Shown here in pieces: positions 838 through 63,352 of a stretch of DNA of 64,000 bases. The stretch is from Agrypnia vestita (Eukaryota > Arthropoda > Insecta > Trichoptera > Phryganeidae), in NCBI GenBank assembly GCA_016648135.1, contig JADDOH010001995.1, forward strand, positions 62,001-126,000, written 5' to 3'. Numbering within the stretch: position 1 is the stretch's first letter; every line of letters begins with the position of its first letter. The translations under genes and the position numbers were made by a program. The notes beneath the pieces are model-generated. The model worked only from the letters and a program-made list of their open reading frames with translations, was not told the DNA's origin and did not search any database.

Positions 838-1512
838 GTAGCAAAAATTGCTAGGGAGTCTTCTTTATTAAATTTTGAATATAAAATAATTGTTACACTT
901 TGGTGTGTGGTGGTGGTGAAATGTCAACAGTTAAGGAGATAATCGCCAAAATTAAATTATTTCAAAACTTCTGTAAAACAGTGAAGAATCATGAAAGCAA
1001 CGAATAATAACAATTCGTATACTTTGATAAATTCAAAAATCTGATTTGTATTCGATATAAATTACTTTCATGATCTTCTGTGTGTAGTTTTATGGGATAT
1101 TCTGCCGTGTATATGTGACCTCTCTGGTCAACGTTTCGGATCACATTGCAGGGTCTCCATCATCAGGCCTGATGTGAAAGCATGTGCTGATGTGTAGGTT
1201 AAGTACTGGTACCCTACCGAAGATCGGATCCCATTGCAGAATCCGAAACGAAGGCCGGGACTTAACATATACACGGCAGAATATCCCAGAAAACTACATA
1301 CAGAAGATTCTGAATGGCCGTGAAAACCTAAGAACATTTTTTTACTTTCATGATAGTCTAACATTTATTGAAAAATAAGTCAGAAATATTGAAAAAAAAA
1401 TGTAAACTTCGATGTCACTTATTTCCTTAACTAGTTATATTTAACCCAAAATGTAAAGAATATTTTTTGTTTAAATTGAATGAGGAAGTCTCCTCCAAAG
1501 TTTTTGCTATTA
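838..1512. mobile_element. Palindromic MITE (family P1), interrupted by a hammerhead element
   Basis: Two imperfect inverted arms, about 838-1061 and 1355-1512, share AACAGTTAAGGAGATAA-like and TCAGAAATATTGAAAA-like blocks. They recur as inverted pairs at 32830-33290, 8538-8920 and 45942-46393. No coding capacity is seen, so it is a non-autonomous fold-back or MITE-like element. The centre is split by a separate 267-bp insertion (1075-1341) flanked by a 13-bp direct repeat, so the MITE is the older of the two. Confidence 0.6.
1075..1341. mobile_element. Retrozyme-like hammerhead element with 13-bp TSD
   Basis: A discrete 267-bp insertion flanked by a perfect 13-bp direct repeat, TTACTTTCATGAT (1062-1074 and 1342-1354). 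Its ends form an inverted repeat (GGGATATTCTGCCGTGTATA near 1093-1113, complement near 1270-1290). Inside are two hammerhead-like cores facing each other. On the minus strand CTGATGA is at 1166-1160 and GAAA at 1137-1134. On the plus strand a decayed CCGAAGA is at 1217-1223 and GAAA at 1245-1248. Relatives are at 32371-32545 and, truncated, at 53370-53470. Retrotransposition by a Penelope-like enzyme is inferred. Confidence 0.65.
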
Positions 1513-1519
1513 GATATTA

Positions 1520-2520
1520 GATAAAGTAACAAGCAGCTCTACACTTCTCTAAATTATTCCAGAATCTTTGGTTTCTATATGTAAACTAAAGGTTTTAGAA
1601 TGAATTTACTTGAACAATTTGAAATCAATAAACGCATAAATGATCCAAATGTAACTATATAAAGTAGTCAATAAAGAATATCTTCTCTCCACTTCTTAAT
1701 ATGTTAAAGAAACCCAAAATCAAGGCCATCATTTAAAATAATTTGTAATGTCAAAATCCAATGAATTAAATAACAACTGAATAGAAGCACTTTGAAAATA
1801 TTTCAGCTAATCACGAGGAATTTTGATAATTAAGTGTAACCTAGAATTTTATAAGCCGGGGAATCTATAATGATAAGTGCCTAGGAAAAAAGAATCTCAA
1901 TATAGGGCTTCACCGAAAACATCTAATTATCCACAGGTTAAGGGGTAACATAACCTTAAAAATAAGATGATTATACGTGGTATATCCACTGTTTGATAAT
2001 GGCCTCACAAGCCGAATCAGCTGTCACATTTAAAATAACACCGGCAGAACTTAATGATAATATTTATTAAAATTTAATTTATTTTAAATTTCATTAAAAA
2101 TAACTTTTCTGTAATTTTTTTATTCAAGACCTGCATTGGTGCATAGTTTCTAGACCACAATTCAAAGCTGTCTTGTAAACTCACCGGTGGCTAATTGCGA
2201 CCACAGAGGCTATAACCCATTTGCGTCACGCAAGATAAGTCACAATCCTGTCACTAGCCGGTACCCCAGTCCGTGTACCTGTCTCCTGGGAACCATCGCA
2301 TTGCGCCTGACTCAGCAATATTTCTCTAGCTTGGTTGGCTGAGCATCATTCGCCATTCTGCAGTTTAGCATCCGTAACGTCCTTTAATATTTATTTATTT
2401 ACATTTAGATGACCTGTGCAGCGCCTTTGTAGTGAGAATTCACCTCAAGTATACTTTGCACACAAAAATTATTTTGACAAAATTTAATTAATGTTATAGT
2501 ACATACCCACTATAAATTAC
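1520..2520. other. AT-rich intergenic sequence
   Basis: No gene seen. Positions 2100-2400 are less AT-rich but contain no ORF or known element. Confidence 0.4.
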
Positions 2521-2528
2521 TTTTTTGT

Positions 2529-2564
2529 CTACCGGTTTCGCGACGTAACTCATCTCTTCGTCAG
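2529..2564 (-). ncRNA. Hammerhead-like ribozyme motif
   Basis: Minus strand: CTGACGA at 2564-2558, a stem II of about 6 bp with one mismatch (GAGAUG/CGUCGC), and GAAA at 2539-2536. The palindrome ACCGGT (2536-2531) follows, then A, with predicted cleavage before the G at 2529. Downstream AGTGGG resembles the AGTGGT box shared by other copies. Stem I is weak here, so activity is doubtful. Confidence 0.5.
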
Positions 2565-2579
2565 AGCCACTAAACTAGC

Positions 2580-3590
2580 ATGTAAATATCACTAAACGCC
2601 ACACCATAGTATTATTTACATACTAACACCTTCACAAAATACTCTTCTCATGCGTGTTACAAGTTACAACTGAAGGCTAACATGCACTAAGTTTCTTATC
2701 AAAAAGGATTAAGAATTTCAGTAGAGTAGAGAAGGAGATAGGTGGGGTCTATTGGGGATGTTGACATGTAGGGGAAATTTATTTGATTATCAGTTAGAGG
2801 AATGGTGTTTTTTATGGCTTTACAAATATTTTTTTTTCCATATTATTAAGTTTCAACCCCTCATTATTATTAGTATTTACTTCCTCTATTATGATATGTA
2901 CCATTGTCGTCGCTATCTGATGCTAAGGTGAACTAACTCGCCCACCCCATGGTTGTAGGGTTAAGGAGATTTAAAAAATATTTTTTCCATCTCTCAAACA
3001 CATCTTTTTCGTCCCTAGTGAAGTTTCTAACTATTTGCCAAAATAGCTTTCCTGCTGCATAATTTTTCCATGCTTGCTGTTTATCCATCTTCACCACTTC
3101 CCTGTTCTCCGATTTTTTCTCGAGGTACTTCTTTCGGTTTCCTTCCTCTTGAATACCAATCCATACGCGGTAAGCTTATTTCTTCTCTTGGACAGCTTTC
3201 TATACAGTTTCAGTTCACTAATTTTCATTTCAATAACCAATCATTCATCGGCTTTTGAATTGTGCATCTTTACCTATCAAAATATATTACTGGAACACTA
3301 ATTTTGCTGATTACCGAAATTTTCCTGATTATTGTATTTTTCTGAATACTAATGTAATGGTTCCGTATTCAAAATATTTCAAAATAATAGAACTTTGATA
3401 GCCACATTGAATGTCGAATGAATGAATGTGTTTTTTGTTTTGAAAAAGAATATCTGACAATTACGTCGTTTTTGCAATCATAACATAAAATCCTAATACA
3501 CACCTAAGATCGTAATTCAATAAACAGTTCTAATTTTCAATTCAATAACCAATCATACGTCAGCTTTTAAATTGAGCAACTTTATGATTG
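2580..3590. other. AT-rich intergenic sequence
   Basis: Only random-looking short ORFs are present. A short imperfect direct repeat (CAATAACCAATCAT) occurs at about 3231 and 3543. Confidence 0.4.
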
Positions 3591-3925
3591 GTACTAACTA
3601 ACTAACTTACCATCATGCCGTTTCCCCGTGGGGGTAGGCAGAGAGGATAGAGCGCCATACTCTTCTGTCCTGACATACAACTTTCGCTTCATCTACATTC
3701 ATACATCTTCGCCTGCAAGCTCGACGGTTGTTGAGGCTTCTAACAGGACCATCTTTCAGTGTCTGGTTAATCTGGTCATGCCACGTCTTCCGTGGTCGCC
3801 CTCTCTTTCTGGCGCCGTCAACATTTGCGTTATATATATTTCTTACCATTCTTTCCTCATTCATTCGCTCAACATGCCCAAACCACCTGATTGGTACTCG
3901 ATTCAAAATGGTCGACAATACATTA
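3591..3925 (-). pseudogene. LINE 3' tail (RT C-terminus)
   Basis: The minus-strand ORF contains RVPIRWFGHVERMNEERM, GRPRKTWHDQI, RRRCMN and WRSILSAYP, the hallmark C-terminal tail of a widespread insect endonuclease-RT family. The element's 3' end is the TTAGTTAG microsatellite at about 3591-3603. The frame is open for 101 codons, so this is one of the better preserved tails. The same tail recurs at 13510, 36775, 40000 and 44160. Confidence 0.85.
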
Positions 3926-3929
3926 TTTA

Positions 3930-4690
3930 TATTACTGGAACACTGATTTCAAGTGAATATATTTTTGACAGTTTAATGGATGCGCACGCATTTCGTAGTC
4001 TCGCATTCCCGCTACATGCTGCTCCCCGCCACACGCGCTTCCGCTACAATGCGCACGACGCGCTTGCGCAACTTCCGTTGCAATAAAAATATTGCCCTAT
4101 TGACACGCCTATTGAATATAACTTCAAAAATGCGTGTTATTTTTATACCCAACATAATATATCGTGTTTATTGTACGCCCGCTGGCCCGCCCTACGTAAG
4201 CCAGCCCTAAGCCAGCAAGCGGCATCTCCAATTCACAATTCTCGGATCGCGACTAAAGTGTCCGCGGCGAGAGCCACTCCCGATTTTTTACGTTCAACTG
4301 GGCTGGTGCTAGCGCGGAATGTATTCTGGGAATGCTGTCTTGTCTTTTGTTTATGTATTCAGAGCGGAGGTGGGGTTGGAGTGTTTTATTAGGAATTTAT
4401 GTATAATTTAGAGACAAAAAATATTACTTTGATCTGTACTGAGACGGTATTAGGTTCTGTTGGCCTTTTACACAATTTTACAGAATAGCAAAAATAAAGT
4501 TTAAAAATCGATTGCGATGGATATTAATAAAGATAAATGTAAGTACTTTTTGTCAAAAGGAGAAAAATTCGCAACCGAGTTATTCCCCAACATTCCCAGT
4601 GCCTACTGTTTTTTTTTTCTTAATTGTATTGATTGGAACATTTAATAAAAAACTTTTAAAATAACTGAAAAAAAAATCTTCTTCATTAAG
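3930..4690. other. Intergenic sequence with a GC-rich patch
   Basis: Positions 3980-4330 are CpG-rich compared with their surroundings, without convincing coding potential. The remainder is AT-rich with no recognised element. Confidence 0.4.
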
Positions 4691-4692
4691 AG

Positions 4693-4890
4693 CAAAATGA
4701 TTTTGTGGTGACATTATTAATTAATTATTGAATGTGTTGGCATTATGAATAAAACACTTAAACTTAGTTTTTTTCACTATTAAATTTGTATTTTTATTTT
4801 TTATAAATATAATCAATAAAAATATACTTTGATTCACCACTTATTTAAAAGACATAAATAATATGGTGGTGAAAATAAAGTACCGTATTT
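4693..4890. mobile_element. Relic of the hammerhead element family
   Basis: The family tail TTTGTGGTGACATTATTA (about 4703-4720, also at 10904 and inverted near 25352) is followed by an inverted pair: ACTTTGATTCACCACT and ATGGTGGTGAAAATAAAGTA around 4827-4884. These are the outer boxes of the hammerhead inverted-repeat elements with the ribozyme core deleted. Confidence 0.45.
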
Positions 4891-4899
4891 TAGGAATTA

Positions 4900-5340
4900 T
4901 ATTTAAAATTATTCTGTTTAAAAAACTACGCCTTGTTTACTAGGGTATTTTATTACGCAAGTAAAAATATTTTAATTGCATTGTAAATGTGTCTTAGACG
5001 TATGCGAGAAAGGATATAATTCCGCTGTGAACTTTTCGCCTATCCTAAATGACAAGTTTAGTTCATCTATGTAGATTCTCTGTGCATAGTACCGATACCA
5101 TAGAAGAGAAGCGCAAGAGGAGATAAATTCATACGATTCTGCTGCTTTTATTATTTTTCGTATGATCAATAAAGACAACGTGCTTCCACTACATAGTATA
5201 CCTTTACTATAATTGGATGTATTAATATACTCGTATAGTATATGAATAAATATACTATGTTCTTTACCTTTAACTATTCACATATATAAATACATTACGC
5301 AATCTCCGTGTGTAAGTACAAACATTTAGAGATACGTATG
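4900..5340. other. AT-rich intergenic sequence
   Basis: Positions 4990-5160 are less AT-rich (jagged 5' half, GAAGAGAAGCGCAAGAGG) but I recognise no gene or element. Confidence 0.35.
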
Positions 5341-6800: not shown

Positions 6801-7166
6801 AAATGAAAATGATATATATCAAAAATAAAGATTTTTGAGAAAAACGAAAACTTAGCGTATTTTTTGATCATACCTCCTAAACGTTTATATGTATAATATA
6901 CGTAAACGTAAACTTATGTAGAGAGGTGCTATTCGATTACCGCCCACTGTCGTTCCGGACCATGAGATATTTTAAGATTTAGTGTTGGAAGTTCTTCAAT
7001 GGATTAACCTATTCATGAACGTTCACCGGATTCGTGATAAAACTTTATTACTACATTATATATACGCCATTGTTTTGAAAGAAGAATAACTCAAATAAAT
7101 CTATTTTTTCTTGTGTGTATTTGTAAATAATTATCACTTTGTATAAACCTGTATTTATTGAATTAT

Positions 7167-7200
7167 CAACGTGTTTCGGGGCCAGAGGTCCCTTCATCGG
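7167..7200 (-). ncRNA. Hammerhead-like ribozyme downstream of a Penelope-type endonuclease
   Basis: Minus strand: CCGATGA (7200-7194, one change from CUGANGA), unpaired A, stem II GGGACC/GGCCCC (one mismatch), GAAA (7177-7174), CACG, then UU and GAU. A 4-bp stem I is possible (CUAU/GAUA). It lies about 22 nt after the stop of the endonuclease fragment at 7222-7345. The C replacing U4 of the core probably inactivates it. Confidence 0.55.
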
Positions 7201-7221
7201 GATATTTTAAATTTTTTTTTA

Positions 7222-7345
7222 GTACTGTAAAATAATTATTCGAAGTATGTAAATAGAAGGGAATTGAATAAATAATTTTGAATAAATGTTAAAACAATTT
7301 AAAAGGTAACGATTTGCAAAAAGGATTTGGTTATTTATAATCTTT
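7222..7345 (-). pseudogene. Penelope-like element endonuclease C-terminal relic
   Basis: The minus strand reads NQILFANRYLLNCF, matching NQVLFANSYLLNLF of the longer copy at 63439-64000. Only the extreme C-terminus survives. The frame then runs through unrelated AT-rich codons to a stop near 7222, immediately before the hammerhead-like motif. Confidence 0.6.
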
Positions 7346-7349
7346 GATT

Positions 7350-8030
7350 GGCTATATTATTAAAATATATATAAACCTACTTTTGTTTTGTCGCGTTTTA
7401 CAATGGAAAATTTTTAAAATATTTTTTATTTAAAGACCAATATTTTACAATATTCTACATTTTTTTCTGGATATTGCGTCTGACATGTTGGCCCCAAAAC
7501 ACGTTCCTGAGTGACAGTGTAACAGTTGTTGCTTATTGTATGGACTGAAATTAAAATAAATAAACGCATTTATACGTGCACGTGCATACATAAACATGAA
7601 TACGCACCAAAACGTATCATTTCACATCCATGTACCTATATTTGCATACATATGCAATAAAACTTTTATATTATAATTGTTAATTTTTAATATATTCCTA
7701 TTTATTTTTTTTTTATTTAATTTTTTAACAGACCGACAACAGGTCATTAATGACTCTAATGGATAGTGCTAGGGTGAGTATGTATGATAATGTTGTAACC
7801 TAACATTATTAATATAATCTAGAACACGTGCAATATAAAATATAAAATCAAAATAAAATTGAACACATACGTAATACAAGTTAACATAATGTGCAAATGA
7901 CATGATCAATATATTAATTATATATATATATATATGTCTATTATCACAGGAAAATAAAATAAGATATGTATAACAATATCTTGCATCCTCTCTACAACTC
8001 AGTGATAAAGAAATCTGAGCATAGTATCGA
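7350..8030. other. AT-rich intergenic sequence
   Basis: No gene. TTGGCCCCAAAACACGTT at about 7489-7506 resembles a further decayed hammerhead-family half-site. Confidence 0.35.
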
Positions 8031-10560: not shown

Positions 10561-10974
10561 ACTTTGCGGATTAGTTCTTGGTTTATTGTCCGTGCCTACA
10601 TAGGAGAATGGCAAAAATATAACACCGAACAATACGCATTCTAAGTTGCAGGCTTAGGTCACGGTTAGAAAATAAAATCTCATTCTGAGAAACGAACTTC
10701 TTGCCATCTCTGTTCGAGCTTTTACTTCTTGAGATGGATATTATATATATAAAAATATGAAATACAATTTTGATGATCACACTTATCCTATGAGATGTAG
10801 AGATTTTAGGCTTCAACACATAAAACTGGCAGGAACGCAAAATAGTTGATACTATAAACTGTTCGAAGAATATTTTTTCTTCTTCTGTATGAAGGCTTGA
10901 ACTTTGTGGTGACATTATTATTAAAATAAAACACAAATTACTTTGTTTTCACCACTATATTAGATTAAAAAATC

Positions 10975-11007
10975 TACATGTTTCGAGAACAATGTTCTCT
11001 TCATCAG
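10975..11007 (-). ncRNA. Hammerhead-like ribozyme (left arm)
   Basis: Exact complement of the copy at 11030-11062: CTGATGA at 11007-11001, stem II GAGAAC/GUUCUC, GAAA at 10984-10981, palindrome ACATGT, then A with predicted cleavage before the G at 10974. The two ribozymes face each other at their 5' sides. Confidence 0.65.
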
Positions 11008-11029
11008 GATTATATGATGTCTAATAATC

Positions 11030-11062
11030 CTGATGAAGAGAACATTGTTCTCGAAACATGTA
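11030..11062 (+). ncRNA. Hammerhead-like ribozyme (right arm), best-preserved copy
   Basis: CTGATGA (11030-11036), one unpaired A, perfect 6-bp stem II GAGAAC/GUUCUC with AUU loop (11038-11052), GAAA (11053-11056), self-complementary ACATGT (11056-11061), then A17. Predicted cleavage follows 11062. Stem I pairs CUAAUAAU (upstream, read backwards) with GAUUUUUU downstream: six pairs with one internal U-U mismatch. The one deviation from the textbook core is the extra nucleotide between A9 and stem II, which all family members share. Confidence 0.7.
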
Positions 11063-11294
11063 GATTTTTTAATCTAATATAGTGGTGAAAACAAAGTAAT
11101 TTGTGTTTTATTTTGATACTATAAAGGTTTCAAATTGTTCAATGAACTGCCAGAAAATATGAAAGAAGTAACTAGTCCTACAACTTTTCGTAGGTTAAGT
11201 GCAAAACGTGTGAAATATAAGTTTAATGTACATACGATCATGTTATGTTATTTAATATTTATGTACTTGGTGTAAAAATGTACTTTTTACAACT

Positions 11295-12465
11295 AAATAA
11301 TAGTATACAAATAAAAATTTGTTAATTGTTTTTTTATGAACTTACATTATTTTTCCCCTTTCCTAGTTCATAAAACTTTGAATTCAATATTGAAAAAAAA
11401 TACCATCGAAAAATTTATGTGATCTTTCATATTAAAACTTAAACCATTAAATTTAGCCATTAAACCCTCAATCAGACCTACAAATAATACCGCCCTTCGG
11501 CGATTATTATTATTAACTTGTTTTAAATGGTTTGATTCCTGGATTCATTGAACATTCAATTCAACATTAATATTGTTATATTATAATCTAATTGTATTCT
11601 TATAATATCAAAATGTAAATAAATCAATAACAGTGAAAAGATTGATAAATATAATTTATCAAACTATAGATATATTCATAAAAACTTCAAAATCATATAA
11701 TATTCATAAAATCATAAATAGTGTATAACGTTCATAAAATATTTATACTTTGCACTCTAATGTCACTCTAGGACCATCTATTAGGGTCAGTAATGACTTG
11801 TTGTTGTTTTTTTTTGTTAAAAAATAAATAAAATGATTTGAAGGCTGAAAATAATGTCGTACAGCAGGTATACATAAAAACAAGTTGGTCAAAAAAGTAA
11901 TTGCTCTTTGAAATGTTTAGTTTATAATTTATCCTGAAGGAGGAAGGGTGATTTTGAAACCGGTTGGTGTTACCAAAAATATAGTGCATTAAACCAAGTG
12001 AATTTTCTTTCTTGTAGGCATCTATTTTTAAATAATAAAATAGATAAATCAATATTTAACTCATGGCATTGCATAGCCAGTCACTAACGAATCTGTTGTT
12101 AGTGTGTATTTTTTTATTATTGCAGTATAGTAGGACTTATATTTGTTGAATGTGTAATTAATTTATAAATAGGAAATTAAATAATATTAAAAATGTCTCT
12201 GTAGAAGCCCTGTATCAGCTAAAACTAGTGGGTGAAGAAAATTAATTTTTGTGAACAGTATATTTCATATTATTTATAGAATTATCATTATCAATTATTA
12301 AATTTGCATGCAGTTTACACATCAACACACCTCCCCCGTGTACTTAATCACTACCATGTGTCAACTGACGTTAAGCGCGTTGTTGCATTACTGTCTAGCG
12401 GGAAGCGGTCATATAAGTTTATCTCTTTCTCGCAAGAACCGCGATAACGCACACATTGAATATAC
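11295..12465. other. AT-rich intergenic sequence
   Basis: No gene or clear repeat; AT-rich throughout. Confidence 0.45.
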
Positions 12466-13509: not shown

Positions 13510-13800
13510 CCTAAAGAAAGGAGTGCTGAGATGGTTTGGTCATAGACATAGAACGTATGAGCGAAAAAAGGATGGTTAAGAAAATATATGGGGCGAGTTG
13601 AAGGCAGCAGGAATAGAGGACGTTCGCGAAAGACCTGGCATGATCAAATACTAAAAATATTGGAGGATGGCCCTGTTAAACAATGAATGGTTGTATGAAT
13701 GTAGCCGAAGAAAAAGCGGTGTGGCAAGATATAAGAATATGGCGTTCTATCCTTTCTGCCTGCTCCTGCGGGGAAACAGCGTGATGGTTAGTTAATTAGA
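13510..13800 (+). pseudogene. LINE 3' tail, degenerate
   Basis: The plus strand carries LRWFGH, a broken ERMSE region, RERPGMI (from GRPRKTW), LEDGPV and WRSILSA remnants, ending in the TGATGGTTAGTTAATTAG tail. It has several frameshifts and is shorter than the 40000 copy. Same family as 3591-3925. Confidence 0.7.
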
Positions 13801-15617: not shown

Positions 15618-15629
15618 TATATTTTTGTC

Positions 15630-15845
15630 CTGTTGTATTATGCTATAATTTTTTGGTTATTCATTATAAATATAATTAAACTAATTAACTTTTTTTATCA
15701 CCACTAAATTTTTTTGGTTAAACCAACCGGACGTTCCTTCGTCAGGGTTTTAAGTATACCCTGACGAAGGAACGCTGTTTCCGAAACCGGTTGGTTAAAA
15801 AAAAAATTAGTGGTGATAAACAAAGTTAATTAGTTTAATTGTATT
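15630..15845. mobile_element. Retrozyme-like hammerhead element with 12-bp TSD
   Basis: Flanked by TATATTTTTGTC at 15618-15629 and 15846-15857. Inverted arms (about 15667-15747 and 15759-15845) meet at a short spacer. The right arm holds a full hammerhead-like core; the left arm has lost about 14 nt, namely the distal half of stem II and GAAA. Both arms carry the AGTGGTGATAAACAAAGTTA-type outer box shared with the Penelope copies. Confidence 0.75.
15761..15792 (+). ncRNA. Hammerhead-like ribozyme
   Basis: CTGACGA (15761-15767), unpaired A, stem II GGAA/UUCC (15769-15772 with 15779-15782), GAAA (15783-15786), palindrome ACCGGT (15786-15791), U17, predicted cleavage after 15792. Stem I: CCA upstream pairs with GGU downstream. 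Confidence 0.6.
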
Positions 15846-15857
15846 TATATTTTTGTC

Positions 15858-19059: not shown

Positions 19060-19548
19060 AAAAATGTTTTAAATGCAGTCACCGAGGATTACTAATTAAG
19101 AATGTACTGAATTCTAGATTTTATGTTTCTATCCTTTCCTAAATTATCTCTCCTATAAATTTATAGGCTATATTTCCTATGAAATCTCGAATTCAGTACA
19201 TTTTACATTAGTAATTCTCGATTACTGCATTCAAAGTGTTTATGGATGCTGGTGCCTTTACTTTTATATTCCCATAAAGGATATGACGTTATTCATTGAC
19301 CTATAAAATAGACACGTTATTTCCATACTTCAAAATAAGAATTCAAAAAGAGAACAAATCACATAATCAAGTAATCACGTAAAAATCAGGTAATTTGAAG
19401 TCACGGTGATTAAAATAACATACTCATTCTTACAATAGTGTATACTCTGTTCCTTTTTAACCGGGACTTTTTTTCGGCGTAGTTCTCGCAGTCGGCGTTT
19501 TGTTTCGGTCCGTTCACGCTTGTAACGTATCCATAGTTTAATATAACA
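19060..19548. other. AT-rich intergenic sequence
   Basis: GAATTCAGTACATT-type blocks form an imperfect inverted pair (about 19100-19135 and 19185-19205). No gene. Confidence 0.35.
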
Positions 19549-20204
19549 CTAGCTGTACGTACCCGGCGTTGCTCGGATTATGGATTAATTTGAAAATAAA
19601 TTTATGGGGAGGAAACAAAGCATTGATTCGAAAGGTATAGATTTGCATCGAAAATATATCCGGGGGAGGAGAAAAGGTAAAAGGGGAGGGAGGAAATATA
19701 GCTTATGTTACCCGCCGAGACCTAAAGAAAAAGTTTCCAAATTTTAAGTCCGATCTGACAAACGGTACAGATTGGCATCGAAAATATATCAGCGGAGGGG
19801 AAGGGATAAAAAAAATAGGGGGGAAATGCCGCATATGTTACCCGCCGATTCCTTAAGAATAAGCTTCCAAATTTTAAGTCCGATCGGTCAAACTATACAG
19901 ATTTGCATCGAAAATAAATCAGGAGAGGGGAAGGGTTAAAATAATAGGTGGGAAATGTCACCTATGTTACCCGCCGAGTCTTAAAGAATAAGTTTACAAA
20001 TTTTGAGTCCGATCGGCCAAACGGTACAGATTTGCATCGAAAATATGTAAGGGGGAGAGGAAGGGGTATGAGAATAGGGGGGAAATGTTGCCTATGTTAC
20101 CAGCCGGGTCTCAAAGCATAAGTATGCAAAATTTGAATCGAATCGGACGGTGTGGATTTGTATAGACAGACAGACAGTCAGACATTGACTTCTATAGGTA
20201 TAGA
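19549..20204 (-). mobile_element. Non-autonomous Helitron with tandem array
   Basis: On the minus strand it begins TCTATACCTATAGAAGTC (20204) and ends GTACAGCTAG (19549), inserted between A and T. The interior is about four tandem units of about 131 bp, each with GCATCGAAAATATATC, a purine-rich run, TATGTTACCCGCCG and AATTTTGAGTCCGATC. A GACA microsatellite lies near the 5' end. A second copy is at 53800-54345. Confidence 0.75.
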
Positions 20205-20349
20205 TTGACGTTATTAGTTTAAATTTTAATTAAACTTAATTAAATATCGATTTACATCCTGCGCTAGCTAATACATGACCTACACTTTGACAAGGTCTTT
20301 GAAAATTATAATCCAAATTGATACAATTGGATTTTGGTCAATTTTTGGG

Positions 20350-23000: not shown

Positions 23001-23018
23001 TTTGAGTATACCAACATG

Positions 23019-25275: not shown

Positions 25276-25279
25276 ACTT

Positions 25280-32340: not shown

Positions 32341-32370
32341 TAAATAAGATTTATTAAACAATAATAAATA

Positions 32371-41727: not shown

Positions 41728-42990
41728 TTATTTATTTATTTTGTTTTAGGGAAAATTAACAGCAAAACAACAATCTTAAAAATATGAAATAATGGTTTTT
41801 ACAATTATGCCAATTATAAATTTTCCACTGAATATAAAAATTAACTTTAATTTACTTTAATAGCGAGTGGAGAGGGTGGAGGGGAATGTGGGACGGGAGT
41901 AGAAAGGAAGATATAATGTACAAATTAGTTTGGGTGCGGTAGTGTACATATTGTTTCTTTTATGTTTCTTATTGTTGCGTTGAAAATGTCAATGTGGTGA
42001 TAGTTTGTGTTAAATGAATTTGTGGATCTGTACATAAAGGAGTTTTGATTTGAGTTGGTCTTACAAAAGGGGAGATGAAAAGTAAGTGAATGTCTGTTAT
42101 TGCGAGTTGGGATGTGGTAAGATATTCGTTGAAGAAGTTCCGGACTATCAACTAGATTGTGTGTTATTTTGAATAGCATCACCGCGTCAGTTATGTTTCT
42201 TCGACGAGTTAGGGTCTGCATGTTAAAAAACTTCGCAGAGTCTTCATTGCTTATATGAGATCTAAATGAACGGAGGTCTAGGTATCTTAGGAATCTGTTT
42301 TGGACGCTTTCAATTCTATTTTCGTGTACTGCATAACCTGGATTCCACACCTGAGATGCATATTCTAAAATACTACGAACGTATGAGAAATAAAGTGTCT
42401 TGAGAGTACTGATATTTTTGAAATGTTTACATGTGCGTATGACAAAACCAAGCATAGATGATGCGTTGGTGACTATATAATCGATCTGTTTGTTAAAATT
42501 TAATTTACTGTCAAGTATCACCCCATGGTCTTTGCTTTCGGATTTGGTAGATAATTTTATATTGTTAATTGAATATTCATTAGAGAATACCTTTTTATTT
42601 CTTGTAAAGCGTACAACGAAGCATTTAGAAACATTTATTTCCAGGCTGTGGGCATTGCAATATGTGTTCAGACGATGTAGGTCATCTTGCAGCCTTAGAC
42701 AATCTTCTAGTGAATTTATGGGAGAAAAAATTTTCATATCATCTGCATATAGGATAGTTTTTGAGTTTAGAAAGCAGTCACCTATATCATTGATATAAAT
42801 GTTAAATAGCAATGGTCCCAGCAGACTGCCTTGAGGTCCTCCAGATGTTACAACAACAGTGTTAGATTTAAGCCCTGCAACCACTACAATTTGACTACGG
42901 TTGGAGATATAAGAAGTAAGCCAACGATAAAGATTGCCGTGAATACCTATCTTTAAAAGCTTGTTTGATAGTGTTGAGTGATCAACCAAT
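41728..42990 (-). mobile_element. 5'-truncated non-LTR retrotransposon
   Basis: Contains an open RT frame (41925-42989), a 3' UTR with a pyrimidine-rich run (41870-41910 on the minus strand), and an AAATA microsatellite end at 41728-41750. Truncation at about 42990 is typical of incomplete target-primed reverse transcription. Confidence 0.85.
41925..42989 (-). pseudogene. Reverse transcriptase, C-terminal 354 residues
   Basis: Motifs in order: KLLKIGIHGNLYRWLTSYIS, GGPQGSLLGPLLFNIYINDI (motif B), the catalytic YADD box with the second and third Asp (residues 82-85), KDHGVILDSKLNF, then SYVRSILEYASQVW and the NRFLRYL thumb region. Jockey/CR1-like layout. The frame is uninterrupted, so the copy is young. 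However, the fingers, the first catalytic Asp and the endonuclease are absent, so it cannot move by itself. Confidence 0.9.
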
Positions 42991-43129
42991 ATAAATATAA
43001 AAAACTATATTTTGACACTCCTATTGATATTGATTCTTATTAGAATGGACCGATTTGTCCGAATTATCCTCAGACTACTCATTGTCATTCCAATTCCAAT
43101 TCGTCATTACATTTCTGCTTCCTATCCTC

Positions 43130-43879: not shown

Positions 43880-44335
43880 GAAATTAAGAAAAAAATTTTA
43901 AAAAACTCACATGAACATGACCGTTGTACAAAAAGAAAAAATGAAATAAGTTTACCATTCCGAAAGAAAAAGATCGCAAACTTCTATGATGTACAGTGGT
44001 ATGAAATTATATGTGAAACTACCAGGGGACATTAGGGATGAAAACAATATAACGACTTTTAAGAAAAAAATAAGAAAATATTTGATACTTACTTTTGGTC
44101 AAAAATTGAATACACTTTATATCTTAAATGTGTATATTAGGAAATATAAAAAATATTGCATTACCTACTTTAAGAATAAAAAAAAGGATGCCCCTATTAA
44201 AATCCTCAACAACCGTAAAGCATGCATGAGAAGATGTATGAATGTAGCCGAAGCAAAAGTAGTGGGCCAAGATGGAGGAATATGGCGTTCTATCATCTCT
44301 GCCTATCCTTGCGGGAAACGGCGTGGTGGTTAGTT
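43880..44335 (+). pseudogene. Two LINE tails fused in one ORF
   Basis: Positions 43986-44140 encode MKLYVKLPGDIRDENNITTF and KKKIRKYL, the end of a Jockey/CR1-type RT. From about 44180 the same frame encodes NNRKACMRRCMNVAEAKVV and WRSIISAYPCG, the tail of the other LINE family, ending GTGGTTAGTTAG. The 115-codon ORF is an accidental chimera from one element inserting in another. Confidence 0.75.
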
Positions 44336-44339
44336 AGGT

Positions 44340-48565: not shown

Positions 48566-48575
48566 AATGTACAGT

Positions 48576-48930
48576 TATTTTTTTTTTCAATTGATTGAGC
48601 AACATAGTAGATTGACATTGAAAAAAAAAAATTCATATTTTATTTGTATATATGTACTTTTATATGAGTAATTCCACCAATATGTTTCAGAAATTACCAT
48701 TCCATCATCAGCGAGTTGTATAACTGTAAGAATATCAGAATGAAATGTCTTTTGTTTCTTGTTTTTCTAAATTATTTGAAATTTAAAAAAAAATATTATT
48801 ACTGAAGTTCGTGATTACTCGCAAGTAATATTTTGTCAGTTATTCAACACCCTGATGATAGAATGGTAATTTTTGAAATTACTCATATAAAAGTAGATAT
48901 ATAAAAATAAAATAATCAAAATTTTTTTCA
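48576..48930. mobile_element. Retrozyme-like hammerhead element with 10-bp TSD
   Basis: Flanked by AATGTACAGT (48566-48575 and 48931-48940). Inverted arms (about 48617-48720 and 48848-48930) share TACTTTTATATGAGTAATT. They carry opposed hammerhead-like motifs, minus 48711-48678 and plus 48852-48876, the latter decayed (GAAAU). The spacer is about 130 nt, much longer than in the other copies. Confidence 0.7.
48678..48711 (-). ncRNA. Hammerhead-like motif
   Basis: CTGATGA (48711-48705), U, stem II GGAA/UUCU, GAAA (48688-48685), near-palindrome ACATAT, U, predicted cleavage before the G at 48678. Stem I pairing is poor. Confidence 0.45.
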
Positions 48931-48940
48931 AATGTACAGT

Positions 48941-50404: not shown

Positions 50405-51690
50405 TTAGGTCCTTACATATGAAATTGGCGTTTAGTATGGGAGGAACATAAAGCCGATTTTTTTTTATTATAATATATTTATTTAATCAAAGTATGTACC
50501 ATTGCTATCTATTCGCTTTTGTCATCTCATAGGTAGTTCATCGATCCCTTTACTAAAAAAACCATTCGGACGGGAATCAATAAAATCTTTGAAGGCGGTT
50601 TGGACTGCCCCATCGGAGTTGAATTTTTTCATTTGCAAGAAGTTATCAAAATTTCGAAAAAAATGGTAATCTGTTGGGGCAAGGTCCGGAGAGTACGGTG
50701 GATGTCTTAGACATTCCAATTGAAGCTCCTCTAATTTGGTAGCCGTCTGTTGTGCAGTGTGTGGTCTAGCGTTATTATGAAGCAGCAGTGGCCTAGAGCG
50801 ATTAACCAGCCTCGGTTGTTTAGCAGCTAGCTTTTCCATCATGGTTTGCAGTTGCTGACAATAAACATCTGCCTTAATCGTCTGGCCAGATTTAAGAAAG
50901 CTGTAGTGAACGACACCAGCACTAGTCCACCAAACGCTCACAAGTAACTTTTTTGGAGTCAATTTTCGCTTGGGGCATGGTTTGGCTGGTTCGGCAGGGT
51001 TCAGCCATTGCGATGAGCGCTTCCGATTATCGTACAGGATCCACTTTTCATCACAGGTAATGATTCGATTTAAAATCCCTTCATTATTGTGCCGGTTGAG
51101 TAATGCAACGCAGCAGTCAATGCGCGTTTGTTGATTTGCTTCACTCAATTCGTGAGGTACCCACCTTTCAAGCTTTTTCACCTTACCAATTTGCTTCAAG
51201 TGGATTAAAACAGTTTTATCACTAACACCGCAGCCTGCAGCTAACTCGGATGTGGTTTGCGATGGATCCGCTTCCACAATAGCCTTCAATTCTTCATTAT
51301 CAACTTTGGTCTCCGGCCGTCCACGGGGCTTGTTCTGCAGGTCGAAATTTCCAGAACGAAAACGTTGGAACCAAAAACGCACTGTGTTTTCTTTTGCGGC
51401 ACCGTCGCCGTACACATCATTAATCCTTCGAGCCGTTTCTGCAGCACTAGTGCCACGGTGGAACTCGTACTCGTAAATAACGCGATATTTCAAGTTTTTC
51501 ATTTTATAAACTGAGTGACGCAAAGAATAAAACAATTGGGGAAAGAACAAATGAATTATAATTTTCAAAACACAAATACATGAGTAAATAGCTGTATAAA
51601 TTTGGATTTGGAATTCCTAACCAAAGAGAAGATATGTGAGATCAAATTTGCCAGTACGGAAAAACGCCAATTTCATATGTAAGGACCTAA
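50405..51690 (-). mobile_element. Complete mariner transposon (1286 bp)
   Basis: Perfect-looking TIRs TTAGGTCCTTACATATGAAA at 50405 and its complement ending at 51690, flanked by TA on both sides (50403-50404 and 51691-51692). Length, TA duplication and a single transposase frame are typical of mariner. It sits between the two halves of a dispersed repeat, so it may have inserted into or near it. Confidence 0.95.
50522..51502 (-). pseudogene. Mariner transposase (DD34D), inactivated
   Basis: Start chosen at MKNLKYRVIYEYEF (51500-51502), which is closer to family N-termini than the upstream in-frame ATG at 51568. Order: paired-type HTH region (SAAETARRINDVYG, VRFWFQRFRSGNF), second HTH, then the DDE domain with TCDEKWILYDN (first Asp), LLLHNNARPHT and YSPDLAPTDYHFF (third Asp). 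The family has HDNARPH; here the second catalytic Asp is Asn (AAT for GAT near 50774), spaced 34 residues from the third. A TGA at 50522-50524 replaces the Trp of the family's RW; the frame would otherwise continue QKRIDSNGTYFD to a TAA at 50483. Both lesions fit G-to-A changes. Such a protein should bind TIRs but not cut. Confidence 0.95.
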
Positions 51691-53799: not shown

Positions 53800-54345
53800 C
53801 TAGCTATTCGTATCCGACGTTGCACGGGTTAAGGTTAAGTTGAAAATAAATGTGTGGGGGGAAACAAAGGATTGATACATACGAACGGTATAGATTTGCA
53901 TCGAAAATATATCGGGGGGGGGGAAAGTAAAAGGGGAGGAAGGAAATGTCACCTTTGTTACCCGCCGGGTCCTAAAGAATAAGTTTACAAATTTTGAGTC
54001 CTATCGGTGGAATGTTATAGATTTGCATCGAAAATGTATCAGTAGGAGGGGTAGGAGTAAAGGGGAAGAGGGGAAATGTAGCCTACGTTACCCGCCAAGA
54101 CCTTAAGAATAAGTTTAAAAATTTTGAGTCCGATCGGTCAACCGGTACAGAACTGCATCGAAAATATATCAGCGGAGGGGAAGGGTTAAAATAATAGGGG
54201 GGAAATGTCGCCTATGTTACCCGCCGATTCCTAAAGCATACGTATGCAAAGTTTGAATCAAATCAGATAAACGGTATAGATTTGTATAGAGAACAGACAG
54301 ACAGACAGAGATGGACAGACAGACACTGAGTTTTATAGGTATAGA
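53800..54345 (-). mobile_element. Non-autonomous Helitron with tandem array, second copy
   Basis: Minus strand from TCTATACCTATAAAACTC (54345) to ACGAATAGCTAG (53800), between A and T. About three internal units of about 131 bp match those of 19549-20204. GACA microsatellite near the 5' end. Confidence 0.75.
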
Positions 54346-55737
54346 TGCAGCTCAAAAATTTTATATGCATTAAAATCGGCAGTTTTAAAAAAAATATTAC
54401 GACTGCTACTTAATTATTACTTAATTTTCTTGTTAACTCCCAAACTACTGGAAAAATATACGTATTTGATTGCACAGTTTTAAAAATAAATTTGTCAGAA
54501 TACAAAAAAATCGGCTTTGACCCAAATATCGTACCAAATAAACACAATTTACTTTAAATATTGAAAAAAAAAGTTTAAACATTATAGTTATACCAAAACA
54601 CAAAGTTACAAAACAATTGTTATGTTTGTAACGTTAACTTTGTGATTGGACATACTTCTTAAGTACAAAAAACTAACAAACTTGTAATAAATAACCCTAT
54701 TGATTGTTTTTAATGTCGACCGATTTCTGTACGCACGACAATAGTAAGTTATTAAATGTATTTATATTAATGATAAAAATAATCAATATTTAGTTTTATT
54801 TAAATTTAGAAGTTTTTTGACGTAAAGAACATATAAAAAATTTAACCGAAACACTGTACACATTAATGAAAAAGAGTTGTTGCCAATGTGGAAAATGTGG
54901 AAATATGTTTTTTTTCCACTGAAAATATAATAGATTGGAACACTGATATGCCGGTGCAGATATTCCACAGATACCCACAGACATTCGTGCAACCCATGTC
55001 ATGTCATGTCAAGTTGACTGTAGATTGAGATGTTGATAAATCATTACAAAAAAAGATTGATGTAAATATATATAATACATTACTTTTTATCATAACTTCC
55101 GTAGTCTTACTTAACACGATATTTTCAGTATATCTTTAAAAAATAATTGTTAGAATTTCTTTGAAACGGAATTTCCTACACCAGCGGAGTTCGAGTATTT
55201 TCGAAAAAAAAAACTCAATAATGAGACACAATTATAAAAAATACTTCTTTGGCATTTGTGCTGTGTTACATACCTTGCGTTTGAACATAGCTGGACAAAT
55301 GTTCATTCACATTTCGCCCTGCCCCATTACGATCGCAGTTTGGGTACCGTACGCATTTTGTTTAGAAATGTGTTTGGTCAATTATGTGGCTTTTATTTAT
55401 TTTCGTAGATGGCGGTAGTATGCCACCATACTTATTGTATAAAAACTTTGAATAAATATTTAATAATAATCACATAAATTACATAAAATTTGAGAATGTA
55501 AATTATTAAGGGTAGTTATTGTTTACATTAATTTAAAAAAATATATTTATTGGATAGTTTCTAAGATATAAACCAAAACATATCAAAGCTCCAACATCCA
55601 CACGCTTGACACCAGCCTCGCAACATATATGCAAAATCAGAAGCCTTAGCTCGTAGTGTGCGTCTTCGCTGTGATGGCACTTGCTGGACATTGATTTATG
55701 CTCCGCGCGCGCTCATTAGTCAAATGAAATTGCGCGC
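54346..55737. other. AT-rich intergenic sequence
   Basis: No gene or repeat recognised. Confidence 0.45.
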
Positions 55738-56143
55738 GTCTTATTTCCTGTTACGCATTTCCATCCTTTTTCAGGAAATCACATTCCAAAGATTGCAGGA
55801 AAGCGAGAGAGAATATGTTACACATCAGAAATACTTTATTTTGCCCTTTTTGAAGAAAAATGCTGTACTACAAAGATATAAAAAATAAACTTTCATTTAT
55901 AAATGAAAGATATATTGTTTATTTATACTCTTCGATCATCGTCTTATTTCCTGTTACGCATTTCCATCCTTTTTCAGGAAGTCACATTCCAAAGATTGCA
56001 GGAAAGCGAGAGAAAATATGTTACACATCAGAAATACTTTATTTTGCCATTTTTGAAGAAAAATGCTCTACTATAAAGATATAAAAAATAAACTTTCATT
56101 TATAAATGAAAGATATATTGTTTATTTATACTCTTCGATCATC
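55738..56143 (+). repeat. 203-bp tandem duplication
   Basis: Units 55738-55940 and 55941-56143 are nearly identical. Each holds the palindrome CTTTCATTTATAAATGAAAG and CTTCGATCATC at its end. Head-to-tail, two copies only, and recent by identity. Confidence 0.9.
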
Positions 56144-56220
56144 AGAATCAAAAACAACAGCTTCTTTTTAAAATATAATTTTGTCCCACACACAATAATA
56201 ATTACACAAATTATTAATTA

Positions 56221-56260
56221 CTACCATGGTTTCGGAAGGAGCAGTCCCTCTCATCATCAG
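56221..56260 (-). ncRNA. Hammerhead-like ribozyme (left arm)
   Basis: CTGATGA (56260-56254), U, irregular stem II, GAAA (56233-56230), 8-nt palindrome ACCATGGT (56230-56223), A17, predicted cleavage before the G at 56221. Stem I: CAU upstream with GUA downstream. Confidence 0.55.
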
Positions 56261-56304
56261 GTATAGTTAGTGACTATTAATACAACTTTTATTATTAACT
56301 ACAC

Positions 56305-56343
56305 CTGATGATGAGAGAGACGGCTCCTCTCGAAACTATAGTA
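56305..56343 (+). ncRNA. Hammerhead-like ribozyme (right arm)
   Basis: CTGATGA (56305-56311), U, stem II GAGAG/CUCUC (56313-56317 with 56327-56331), GAAA (56332-56335), 8-nt palindrome ACTATAGT (56335-56342), A17, predicted cleavage after 56343. Stem I: CAC upstream pairs with GUG downstream. Left and right copies differ in sequence but keep both helices. Confidence 0.65.
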
Positions 56344-56393
56344 GTGATTGATAACTCATATTGTGGGTTTAGTACAAAGTTAAAATAAAGTTA

Positions 56394-58560: not shown

Positions 58561-58570
58561 AATCACACAT

Positions 58571-59018: not shown

Positions 59019-61040
59019 TATAGGCTGTAATGCAGAAAAGGGCGTTGGGAGTTTTATGAAATATTAATAACTTTTTTCGGTATAATCGAGTATTCTGATT
59101 TTCATAATGTCGTAAAATAATGTCGCACAATATTATTTATTTATATTCAACGAGTATTTTCAATTTAAAAATCGTAATAATTTTCATAGTACGTTTTGAC
59201 AATTTAGCCTTTTCCTTTGAATTATTACACGTATCTATGGTTAGGATATAATCATAAATAATCAAATATTCTAATAATGTTATAAAATAATGTCGCACAA
59301 TTATAATTATTTATATTAATCGAGTATTTTCAATTTAAAAATAGTAATTATTTTCATAGTAAGATTTGACATATCAGCTTTTTTCTTTGAATTATTACAC
59401 GTATCTATGGATAAGATTTAATCATAGATAGAGAAGTATAAAGTGGACTATTCACTATTTTGGTCGGTGGACTGTTATGTACTATAGTGAATGGGCCGCT
59501 TAATAAGAGCTCGCATTTTTTTTGTACAAGGTTTTATTTGAAGTGTCTTGAGTGCCTTTATTAAAAAAAAATATAAAATAATGATTTTTCAACATTGAAA
59601 AATTGTCACTTTATGGTTAGGTTAGGTTTGGTTACTTGATTTAATAACAAATTTATAGGTTAGCTTATGTTTGGTTAGTTGATTTAATAACAAATTTATA
59701 GGTTAGGTTAGGTTTGGTTACTTGATTTAATAACAAATTTATAGGTTAGGTTAGGTTTGGTTGGTTAATTTAATAATAAATCTATAGGTTAGGTTAGGTA
59801 TGGTTACTTGATTTAATGACAAATTTATAGGTTAGGTTAGGTTAGGTTTGGTTGGTTATTTTAATAATAAATTTATAGGTTAGGTTAGGTTACTTGATTT
59901 AATAACAAATTTATAGGTTAGGTTAGGTTTGGTTACTTGGTTTAATAACAAATTTATAGGTAAGGTTTGGTTAGTTAGTTTAATTATAAATTTATAGGTT
60001 AAGTTAGTTAATTTAATAATAAATTTATAGGTTAGGTTAGGTTAGGTTTGGTTAGTTAATTTAATAATAAATTTATAGGTTAGGTTAGGTTAGGTTTGGT
60101 TAGTTAATTTAATTATAAATTTATAGGTTAGGTTAGGTTTGGTTAGTTAATTTAATAATAAATTTATATGTTAGGTTAGGTTTGGTTAGTTAATTTAATA
60201 ATAAATTTATAGGTTGGGTTAGGTTTGGTTAGTTAATTTAATTATAAATTTACAAGTTACGTTAGGTTAAGTATGGTTAGTTCATTTAATAATAAATTTA
60301 TAGGTTAGGTTAGGTTTGGTTTGTTAATTTCATTATACATTTATAGGTTAGGTTAGGTTTGATAAGTTAATTTAATTACAAGTTTATAGTTTAGGTTATT
60401 TAATTTTATTGCGAATTTATTTTTAGATCACGTTATGTTTCGTTATTTTTATTTTCTAGTTGAATGTATAATTTATTCAATAATTTGTGGAATCATTCTT
60501 TAATATTATTATGTGTTCAATTAAAATTGTGTGTAATGCAGTATATTTTATTGTTTTTTAGTACCTACTTTTATCTTTGAATAAAATATCGTGTTGTTTA
60601 CAGTTTGCATTTTGTATAGATAAAATGGATAAAATCTTTTTGGTCTATTTCTATGATAAAATCGTTTATTTGTTAAGTTTATGAAGAAAATAATTACGAT
60701 TTTATAAATGGAATTACTTGTGTAATATTAATAAATATAAGAGTGCGACATTATTTTATGACATTATTGAAATACAAGGACACTTAATTATACCGGAAAA
60801 ATTTATTTATATTTCATATAACTTCCAGAATTCAAAGGGAAAGGCTTAATTGTCAAAACTTACTATGAAAATAATTACGATTTTTTAATTGGATTTACTC
60901 GTATAATATAAATAAATATAATTGTGCGACATTATTTTACGACATTATTAGAATCAGAATACTTAATTATACCGAAAAAAGTTAATATAATTATTATTAG
61001 AAATCCCAACGCCCTATTCTGCATTTATCCCCAGTTATAT
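59019..61040. mobile_element. Fold-back element with tandemly duplicated TIRs and TTAGG minisatellite core
   Basis: TGCAGAAAAGGGCGTTGGGA (59031-59050) is mirrored at 61003-61023. The left arm consists of two related blocks of about 170 bp (59095-59255 and 59275-59420), the right arm of two (60640-60780 and 60830-60990), all sharing AATAATGTCGCAC and TTTTCATAGTA. The core (59611-60410) is a minisatellite. This resembles Foldback/Galileo-type architecture; no transposase is present. Confidence 0.7.
59611..60410 (+). repeat. 43-bp minisatellite with TTAGG motifs
   Basis: About 18 units of GGTTAGGTTAGGTTTGGTTA followed by GTTAATTTAATAATAAATTTATA-type spacers, with variable numbers of TTAGG in each unit. 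TTAGG is the canonical insect telomere repeat, but it is interspersed here rather than contiguous. Confidence 0.9.
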
Positions 61041-61883: not shown

Positions 61884-62375
61884 AATAAAGACATAATAAA
61901 ATTTGAAAACGTCACATTTTGTTAAAAATTGAGCACCTTGTTAAAATGTCACATTCATTTTAGTGTCTCTTGTCTAGCCGTTGCACAGCAAAGGCGTATA
62001 AAAACGTAACATATGTCGTTGACCGAATTAGATTTTCATTTATGGCGTAAATAAATACTTTTTATGTCGTTTCTTGTGCCATAACAATGATTTATGACAG
62101 TGAAATTGTGTCTCGTTGGAAATATTGTCTTAACGTTAGGTGTCAACCTGTTTTCTTATGTCGTATGATAAAGATTAGAAATTCAGGTCACCTACTTAAG
62201 CATCAAATATTTTGATTTTGTTATTTAAAAGACAAAGACAAGATGAGAAGAAATGTAAAGATCGGAGAAAAACAAATAAATCACATTGATGATCATCTGA
62301 TATTTTACATCAAGACATAACTTTGTTTACAAAAACACTTGAATTTATTTATTTAAACAAACTAAATAAACAAAC
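61884..62375. other. AT-rich intergenic sequence
   Basis: Nothing recognised. Confidence 0.4.
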
Positions 62376-62395
62376 ATTTTCCTCATCAGGCTGGT
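62320..62395 (-). ncRNA. Hammerhead-family relic
   Basis: Minus strand CCTGATGAGGAAAATGTTTG (62390-62371), then GTTTAAATAAATAAATTCAAGT and AACAAAGTTATG. The 5' core and the downstream box remain, but the distal stem II half and GAAA have been deleted. Confidence 0.45.
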
Positions 62396-62409
62396 AAAAA
62401 ATAGTCTTC

Positions 62410-62915
62410 AACCTAATATAATACGTAAATTTAATACATATTAAATTAGGTACATTATATCAAATAACAAAATTTAATTGAAAAGATAATTCTTTTATCT
62501 GAGTTTATAAATATAAAATCATGGCATCACGAAAAGGCATTCGAAATTGACATTTAATGTCGGAAATCACTGGAAATATTTTTAGGATAGGTGGATAAAT
62601 TTATATGGTTATTTATATTTCATTTCAATTATTTCTGACTATTCCAAATTATTCGATTGTTAATTCCAATCCAATATGGTATCCAAATTATCCGACATGT
62701 ACCCAATAAAACAATTTTTTAATCAAAAGCTTGATATTACTCGATTAAATTTGTTGTTGGTAGATTTTAGATATTTGATTTTAAAAATTAATTTATGAAT
62801 AACATTCTACGCCAATAAACAGTATTATTATTTTAATTAAAAAAAAACCTATAAGCTTTCTACAAAACGGCATTAACGCGAACGACGGATCTACAATAAT
62901 TTACATAATTGTAAG
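62410..62915. other. AT-rich intergenic sequence
   Basis: Nothing recognised. Confidence 0.4.
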
Positions 62916-62921
62916 TCCATA

Positions 62922-62953
62922 CTGACGAAGGCACAGTGGTATCGAAACCAGTA
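62922..62953 (+). ncRNA. Hammerhead-like ribozyme motif
   Basis: CTGACGA (62922-62928), A, stem II GGCAC/GGUAUC with one mismatch, GAAA (62944-62947), CCAG, U, A, predicted cleavage after 62953. AAGUC upstream and GACUU downstream give a 5-bp stem I if CAUA is bulged. Confidence 0.45.
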
Positions 62954-63318
62954 GACTTCAATGAGTGTGATTTACACAATGTTAACTTTTTGAAATGAAA
63001 AATTATGTAACCAACAACAATATTAAGCATTGATTGAAACATCAAAAATATAATATTAATAATGTCAAAACTATTCTAATACTCTCGAAACCCGAGGAGT
63101 AAAATATAATTAACTCAAGTAAATGTAACATACATGTTTTCCATCCATTTTAATGATTATCATCAATAATCTCTACAATTTTAACGCCAAATTCATCAAT
63201 AATATATTGTTGAAGAAATATAATTTAACTTTATCCGTTTAAATTATTATCAAAAACATTATTATTTTTAATTAATATAAATTAACTTTGTTTAAACCAC
63301 TTATTTATTGAAAAAAAT

Positions 63319-63352
63319 CAACATGTTTCAAAGCCAATGGCTTCTTCATCAG
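63319..63352 (-). ncRNA. Hammerhead-like ribozyme in Penelope 3' pLTR
   Basis: CTGATGA (63352-63346), A, 6-bp stem II GAAGCC/GGCUUU (one G-U), GAAA (63329-63326), palindrome ACATGT (63326-63321), U17, predicted cleavage before the G at 63319. Lies about 87 nt downstream of the endonuclease stop at 63439. Downstream AAGTGGTTTAAACAAAGTTA is the box shared by the family. Confidence 0.65.

Follow-up and report, generated by a model that had tools for sequence, protein, structure and literature searches.

Twelve short motifs resembling the hammerhead ribozyme are scattered over both strands of a 64,000-nt stretch of DNA from Agrypnia vestita (Trichoptera, Phryganeidae; contig JADDOH010001995.1, positions 62,001 to 126,000; hereafter the window), and raise the question of what kind of sequence carries them and how it arrived there. 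The reading preferred here, at a probability of roughly 0.87, is that they are minimal type I hammerheads within the pseudo-long terminal repeats (pLTRs) of several families of GIY-YIG Penelope-like elements (PLEs), whose insertions here are short, decaying and for the most part 5'-truncated. A preliminary description of the sequence had taken the sites for hammerhead motifs and hinted at PLEs, an identification that holds, and two cores are tied to a PLE-type endonuclease frame.

All twelve sites proposed in that description were present at their positions, on both strands, when checked against the window sequence, and 11 of them have an exact CTGANGA, a stem II with 0 to 3 mismatches and GAAAC. 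Three members depart from the described form. Core G at 7164–7204 on the minus strand (listed as 7167–7200) reads CCGATGA, a change within the catalytic core that places it outside the strict motif count. At site 32432–32462 UC, and not UA or UU, precedes the cut in the register used, and stem II has two mismatches. At site 1134–1166 the block between GAAA and UH consists of two bases only (CG), and stem II has three mismatches. A strict filter required CTGANGA, then a stem II of 5 bp or more in which no more than one pair was mismatched, then GAAAC; 300 dinucleotide shuffles served as control. The window yielded 9 such motifs against a shuffle mean of 0.007 (maximum 2), none of the 300 shuffles reaching 9. 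Without stem II mismatches the counts were 3 and 0, and looser forms of the motif gave 10 to 11 in the window against 0.07 to 0.26 in shuffles. Chance matches to a loose pattern might be suspected from CTGANGA by itself, which is merely about twofold in excess (29 against 15.3 expected). This explanation is refuted by the excess of the full motif over shuffles, and homology between the repeats also extends beyond the motif, leaving chance a probability close to nil.

Three models were built: R1 from all twelve cores, R2 from A+, B, D, G and H, and R3 from C+, C-, E, F, J and K. The cores are given below with the E-value from the model that held each one out.

63316–63356, minus strand: core D, with CUGAUGA, stem II GAAGCC/GGCUUU, GAAA, CAUG, UU and stem I (R3, E = 0.0025)
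7164–7204, minus strand: core G, with CCGATGA (R3, E = 2.8e-4)
10971–11011, minus strand: core A- (R3, E = 8.5e-7)
11026–11066, plus strand: core A+ (R3, E = 8.5e-7)
15757–15796, plus strand: core B+, block CCGG (R3, E = 1.1e-5)
56301–56347, plus strand: core C+, block CUAUAG (R2, E = 0.25, not significant)
56218–56264, minus strand: core C-, block CCAUGG (R2, no listing at E up to 2)
48675–48715, minus strand: core H (R3, E = 0.062)
1126–1170, minus strand: core K (R2, E = 0.64)
32424–32466, minus strand: core J (R2, E = 0.24)
2526–2568, minus strand: core F, single, block CCGG (R2, E = 0.58)
62918–62957, plus strand: core E, single, block CCAG (R2, E = 0.14)

Of the six cores held out from R3, five were recovered: A+, A-, B+ and G with E no higher than 2.8e-4, and D at 0.0025. 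The sixth, H, scored 0.062. R1 matched its twelve training cores by construction and added one new core, the first of the following sites.

11930–11969, plus strand: further decayed core (CTGAAGGA, GAAACCGGTTGGTG), outside all training sets (R1, E = 0.0022; R2, E = 8.8e-4; R3, E = 0.051)
15721–15749, minus strand: broken partner core B- (R1, E = 0.013)
48848–48899, plus strand: broken partner core in pair H/I (R1, E = 0.39)
23009–23042, minus strand: possible further core (R1, E = 0.16; R2, E = 0.02)

The twelve cores were aligned to a model of stem I, stem II and helix III in a register chosen by the analyst. The alignment omits the broken copies B-, 48852+ and K+ and the decayed 11930+, and covariation was counted on 11 distinct rows, with the identical A+ and A- taken once. 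Over the whole structure 76.6% of cells are paired against 63.2% in shuffles, with none of 500 shuffles reaching this value. The covariation score of 0.388 against 0.192 in shuffles was likewise reached by none of 500, and six slid controls all scored lower (at most 0.182), although kinship among the sequences can lift such scores above shuffles. Pairing amounts to 65.9% of cells in stem I and 78.1% in stem II, and both sides change in five of the six stem II pairs, upholding the earlier observation that stem II covaries between copies. The covariation arises between element families and so points to selection on mobile elements before insertion. The earlier claim that it argues for RNA-level selection is not supported for these loci, where partner copies are decaying.

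In 8 of the 12 cores (all but E, G, H and J) the bases from GAAA to UH form a self-complementary block, a property shared by 6 of the 133 GAAAC sites elsewhere (Fisher p = 3.2e-7); two of those six (11956+ and 23022-) fall in likely decayed copies. The letters of the block differ (CAUG, CCGG, CUAUAG, CCAUGG, CG) yet stay self-complementary, which would fit two molecules pairing there; self-complementary blocks of 2–6 bases would leave no space for a fully paired intramolecular hairpin. With CUGANGA, stem II, GAAA, a closing stem I and a helix III reduced to the short block, the motifs have the minimal form of PLE hammerheads and, as judged from their sequence, are most likely minimal type I hammerhead ribozymes.

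The attribution to PLEs starts from coding remnants beside two of the cores. Core D is preceded on its own strand by the following frame, separated from the aligned core by 85 nt.

63442–63762, minus strand: stop-free 107-aa C-terminal GIY-YIG piece of a PLE-type frame (PF01541, E = 5.7e-6, 27.0 bits, cut-off 22.6)

Four of eight candidate database proteins match this piece at 40–52% identity, one of them with PF01541 and none carrying a name, in a search limited to proteins of similar length and hence closed to PLE proteins of full length. A 21-aa match to the end of this endonuclease (7291–7353; tblastn E = 3.3e-4) stands upstream of core G, and another endonuclease fragment, with in-frame stops, lies at 25129–25287 on the minus strand (E = 2.9e-6). 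The GIY-YIG domain was not seen at cores other than D and G. PLEs have this layout, in which a frame ends in a GIY-YIG domain and a repeat with a hammerhead adjoins it (PMC11167929), and D and G are assigned to PLEs because the GIY-YIG frame, or its tail, precedes the hammerhead repeat. That hammerheads are already known from PLEs, as the preliminary description had said, agrees with the literature (PMC7761336, PMC6155905; these two papers, and PMC3846280, PMC8969392 and PMC7229834 below, are cited from excerpts).

The repeat beside this endonuclease frame is shared with other cores. The arms of the head-to-head pair A (described below) align with the region of D over 99 nt at 76% (E = 1.1e-10), as does B+ over a shorter span of 41 nt (E = 4.9e-4). 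Downstream of the core, A, B, D, E and G align around AGTGGTG...ACAAAGT in a post-motif profile that was trained on these rows, so that its scores are not independent. A piece lacking a core also served as a row of this profile.

25317–25395, plus strand: pLTR and open reading frame (ORF) start without a core, a training row of the post-motif profile; its part 25357–25414 matches 4663–4720 at 84%

C, F, H/I, J and K probably belong with PLEs on account of their core and, for the pairs among them, also their anatomy.

This anatomy is that of a mirror pair. Six core-bearing pairs (A, B, C, H/I, J and K) have arms that point outward from a centre, and in this window no coding body was seen between the arms of the pairs.

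10846–11125: pair A, 13-bp candidate duplication (10846–10858 and 11113–11125), 83 nt of the arms identical
15618–15857: pair B, 12-bp candidate duplication (15618–15629 and 15846–15857), minus copy deleted through the core
56211–56354: pair C, arms 85% complementary
48566–48940: pair H/I, 10-bp candidate duplication, core 48675–48715 on the minus strand and broken core 48852 on the plus strand
1062–1354: pair K, 13-bp candidate duplication (1062–1074 and 1342–1354), core 1126–1170 on the minus strand with a degenerate plus partner
32360–32556: pair J, 9-bp low-complexity candidate duplication, core 32424–32466 on the minus strand, other arm without a core
4779–4928: head-to-head pLTR pair without hammerhead cores, found by an nhmmer search using the post-motif profile, whose training rows included these arms

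Adjoining pair C, at 55737–56142, are two tandem 203-nt copies that are 98% identical. The candidate target duplications were compared with 400 draws at the same spacing as the element, pair C being left out. Draws reaching the length of the candidate numbered 15 of 400 for A, 10 of 400 for B and 6 of 400 for K. The candidate duplications are fair in A, B and K and weak in H/I and J. An earlier control of 200 random window pairs was milder for A, H/I and J; in it the length was reached by 0 of 200 pairs for A, and by 2.5% (B), 8% (H/I), 14.5% (J), 13% (K, taken at 9 bp in a shortened window) and 64% (C). The tandem arrays of the window may inflate the duplication controls.

If the duplications mark the borders, each of the five bounded pairs has one arm that reaches further outward than the other, by approximately 66 nt in A, 44 nt in H/I, 39 nt in B, 35 nt in K and 17 nt in J. 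The long (minus) arm of A extends 57 nt beyond an ATG, presumed to be the ORF start, whose frame begins MSPQSSSLHTEEEKIFFEQ. At this ORF-start end of the arm, beside the presumed start of reverse transcription, a GAAGAA...UUCUUC hairpin (10853–10891, minus strand) has a weak R2 score (E = 0.0068). The short arms end 9 nt (A) and 4 nt (B) ahead of the presumed ATG. In K the short arm ends directly after ACAGAAG, whereas in J it continues for about 3 to 10 nt beyond the matching AGAAG, depending on the duplication chosen. These few cases suggest preferred start sites. In the pair at 4779–4928 the arms end just short of the expected place of the hammerhead and one of them, beginning GACATAAATAATAT, starts near the expected cut site; from this single pair a link between arm starts and the cut site is possible.

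Pair A, with arms identical over 83 nt, looks the youngest, and its transcript has a predicted hairpin of -147 kcal/mol in which the ribozyme is paired with its antisense. Elsewhere the two arms of a pair decay independently of each other: B- is without the GAAA side of the core, 48852+ is without helix III and the cut region, the core of K+ is degenerate, and J retains a core in a single arm. Plant microRNA names returned by Rfam at E up to 10, below the cut-offs, at 10966–11071 and 56204–56361 probably reflect the long near-perfect hairpins of pairs A and C and were rejected as microRNAs.

A route from element to relic can be proposed. In an intact element the motif would sit between the ORF end of one copy and the ORF start of the next in a tandem array, and the self-complementary block replacing helix III would let two copies pair, tandem transcripts being cut as dimers. 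At insertion, the element protein would cut both target strands and prime reverse transcription from each, with reverse transcription starting inside the RNA near the ORF start. Two 5'-truncated cDNAs would then join centrally and give a head-to-head pair with outward tails of unequal length. A PLE protein has been reported to cut and extend both strands, with reverse transcription beginning within the ORF, and its authors explain the 'tail' in this way (PMC11167929). The present copies are probably ribozyme-silent relics with little present role, because the transcript of a pair would form a long hairpin burying the ribozyme.

Other origins of the motifs and their pairs were weighed against this scheme. 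Metazoan retrozymes are non-autonomous tandem repeats of approximately 170–400 nt that carry a type I hammerhead and spread as RNA circles; retrozyme-like repeats are known from insects, with PLEs proposed as their helper (PMC7229834, PMC7761336). No direct same-strand tandem cores were found among the sites at the spacing needed (monomers of approximately 150–400 bp), the closest same-strand cores, 11030+ and 11930+, being 900 nt apart with different blocks. The pairs are moreover inverted, helix III is a loopless block and one core is joined to a GIY-YIG frame. In the absence of direct tandem units a retrozyme origin was dropped as improbable. A still poorer case can be made for foldback or miniature inverted-repeat transposable element (MITE)-like DNA transposons that acquired a hammerhead. 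Inverted repeats that are short and bounded by candidate target duplications would suit them, and no homology to the PLE repeat was found for C, H/I, J and K. A DNA transposon would show equal termini, whereas the arm ends are unequal in five of five bounded pairs; the long arm of A passes the presumed ORF start, and the arms of A and B match the repeat beside the endonuclease frame. The unequal arm ends led to the rejection of this very improbable origin.

The main rival concerns the same elements and differs in how the mirror pairs arose, namely by self-priming on an antisense template instead of priming on both target strands. For Penelope of rotifers, palindromes found where the inverted copies join led to the proposal of self-priming (PMC3846280), which is a possible if doubtful explanation here. 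Against it, the short arms of A and B each end less than 10 nt short of the presumed ATG, and the short arms of K and J end near the same AGAAG; two separate starts would account for such ends more simply, an argument that is weak for so few copies. It is also conceivable, though unlikely, that head-to-head pLTR pairs lacking a coding body form a non-autonomous PLE class in their own right. Two inverted pLTRs, each with a hammerhead, would then be mobilized together in trans through priming on the two target strands, and the resulting mirror pair would give rise to double-stranded RNA. If true, the six pairs among approximately 12 core-bearing insertions would make such a class the ribozyme-bearing counterpart of MITEs.

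The preferred assignment to PLE pLTRs is itself opposed by several results. Homology to the GIY-YIG-linked repeat of D was seen for A, B and G only and not for C, F, H/I, J and K, and confidence is moderated because of this; the sole profile tying in E had E among its training rows. No PLE reverse transcriptase was seen in the window, which stops at 64000, and the upstream frame at 63766–63948 on the minus strand has no Pfam match above the cut-off. The six cores that trained R3 were all missed by R2 at E below 0.1; the best of them scored 0.14, and C- was unlisted at E up to 2. Rfam gave no match at the gathering cut-off and 10 matches at E up to 10, none of them a hammerhead, so the search of Rfam hammerhead models suggested in the preliminary description came back empty at either threshold. 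This miss may have arisen because published minimal PLE hammerheads are without a closed helix III and the usual loop contacts. In the alignment, 9 pairs show two-sided change against 7.0 in shuffles, with 37 of 500 shuffles reaching 9, and further pair types number 20 against 18.0, with 113 of 500 reaching 20. Pair C has no convincing target duplication, and control draws reached the duplication length in 36 of 400 cases for H/I and 93 of 400 for J.

Scattered hammerhead motifs on both strands of insect DNA are best read as the footprints of PLEs. The mirror pairs, with their candidate duplications and unequal tails, are natural records of the little-understood insertion of PLEs and agree with the activity recently seen in vitro, where a PLE protein cut both strands and extended them. 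A genome-wide collection of pairs could separate double priming from self-priming.

The window holds several other features. An unbroken 364-aa frame with Mos1-type HTH and Transposase_1 domains, at 50525–51616 on the minus strand, belongs to a mariner-like element, and the frame at 41928–43004 on the minus strand, in which a reverse transcriptase domain was detected (RVT_1, E = 1.2e-15), marks a retroelement. Mutually related repeat pieces lie on both strands at 3611–3822, 13597–13794, 40257–40406 and 44184–44337. A GC-rich single-frame LRR-Ig gene at 28662–30947 on the plus strand resembles insect kekkon-1. Insect kekkon-1 and LRRC24 proteins stand among the best 120 of 706 matches to this frame, and among the matches listed the best named protein is from Nicrophorus vespilloides (67%), with an unnamed protein at 93%. 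Two arrays of a related tandem repeat of approximately 130 nt lie 34 kb apart (19534–20222 and 53881–54318), and an array of mostly 43-nt repeats, flanked by long inverted repeats, occupies 59527–60493.

In the literature searched, outside which two founding PLE hammerhead papers lie, pLTR mirror pairs without a coding body were not found as a named class; nor did the search find a paper combining Penelope-like elements, hammerhead and beetle or, among the matches listed, the term 'solo pLTR'. Metazoan non-LTR retrozymes resemble the present insertions in having type I hammerheads in repeated non-coding animal elements. According to the excerpts they form direct tandem monomers and, in invertebrates, mostly have a stable helix III, and neither is seen here (PMC7229834, PMC7761336). 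The minimal type I hammerheads of PLEs (Cervera and de la Pena 2014; Lunse, Weinberg and Breaker 2017) have the core, stems I and II and almost no helix III, lie in pLTRs and are thought to be dimeric (PMC7761336, PMC6155905). The cores of this window share with them the core, the stems, the near-absent helix III and, most likely, the placement in pLTRs, and as far as the excerpts go no clear difference in the ribozyme emerges; the block letters here, given above, vary by family.

PAc, the Poseidon element of Anolis carolinensis, is likewise a GIY-YIG PLE with a hammerhead near the junction of pLTR and ORF, and its internal start of reverse transcription and its cutting and extension of both target strands would have counterparts here (PMC11167929). 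The ORF of PAc starts at stem II of the ribozyme, whereas in A- the distance from the first base of CTGATGA to the presumed ATG is 92 nt. The preliminary description had regarded the arrangement of the motifs as unusual, a view that is not supported, head-to-head inverted pLTRs with a one-arm tail having been described already (PMC3846280, PMC8969392). In the excerpted account of the Penelope of Adineta vaga, an inverted pLTR extends into the first codons, a one-arm tail is optional and head-to-head is the commonest order, with target duplications of 8, 9 and 10 bp (PMC3846280). The pairs of the window are alike in their head-to-head pLTRs, one-arm tail, pLTR reaching into the presumed ORF start and candidate target duplications, and differ in that no coding body was seen between the arms and in the length of the candidate duplications, 9–13 bp. 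The feature is a known one, relics of PLE pLTRs that carry minimal hammerheads, and not a new class.

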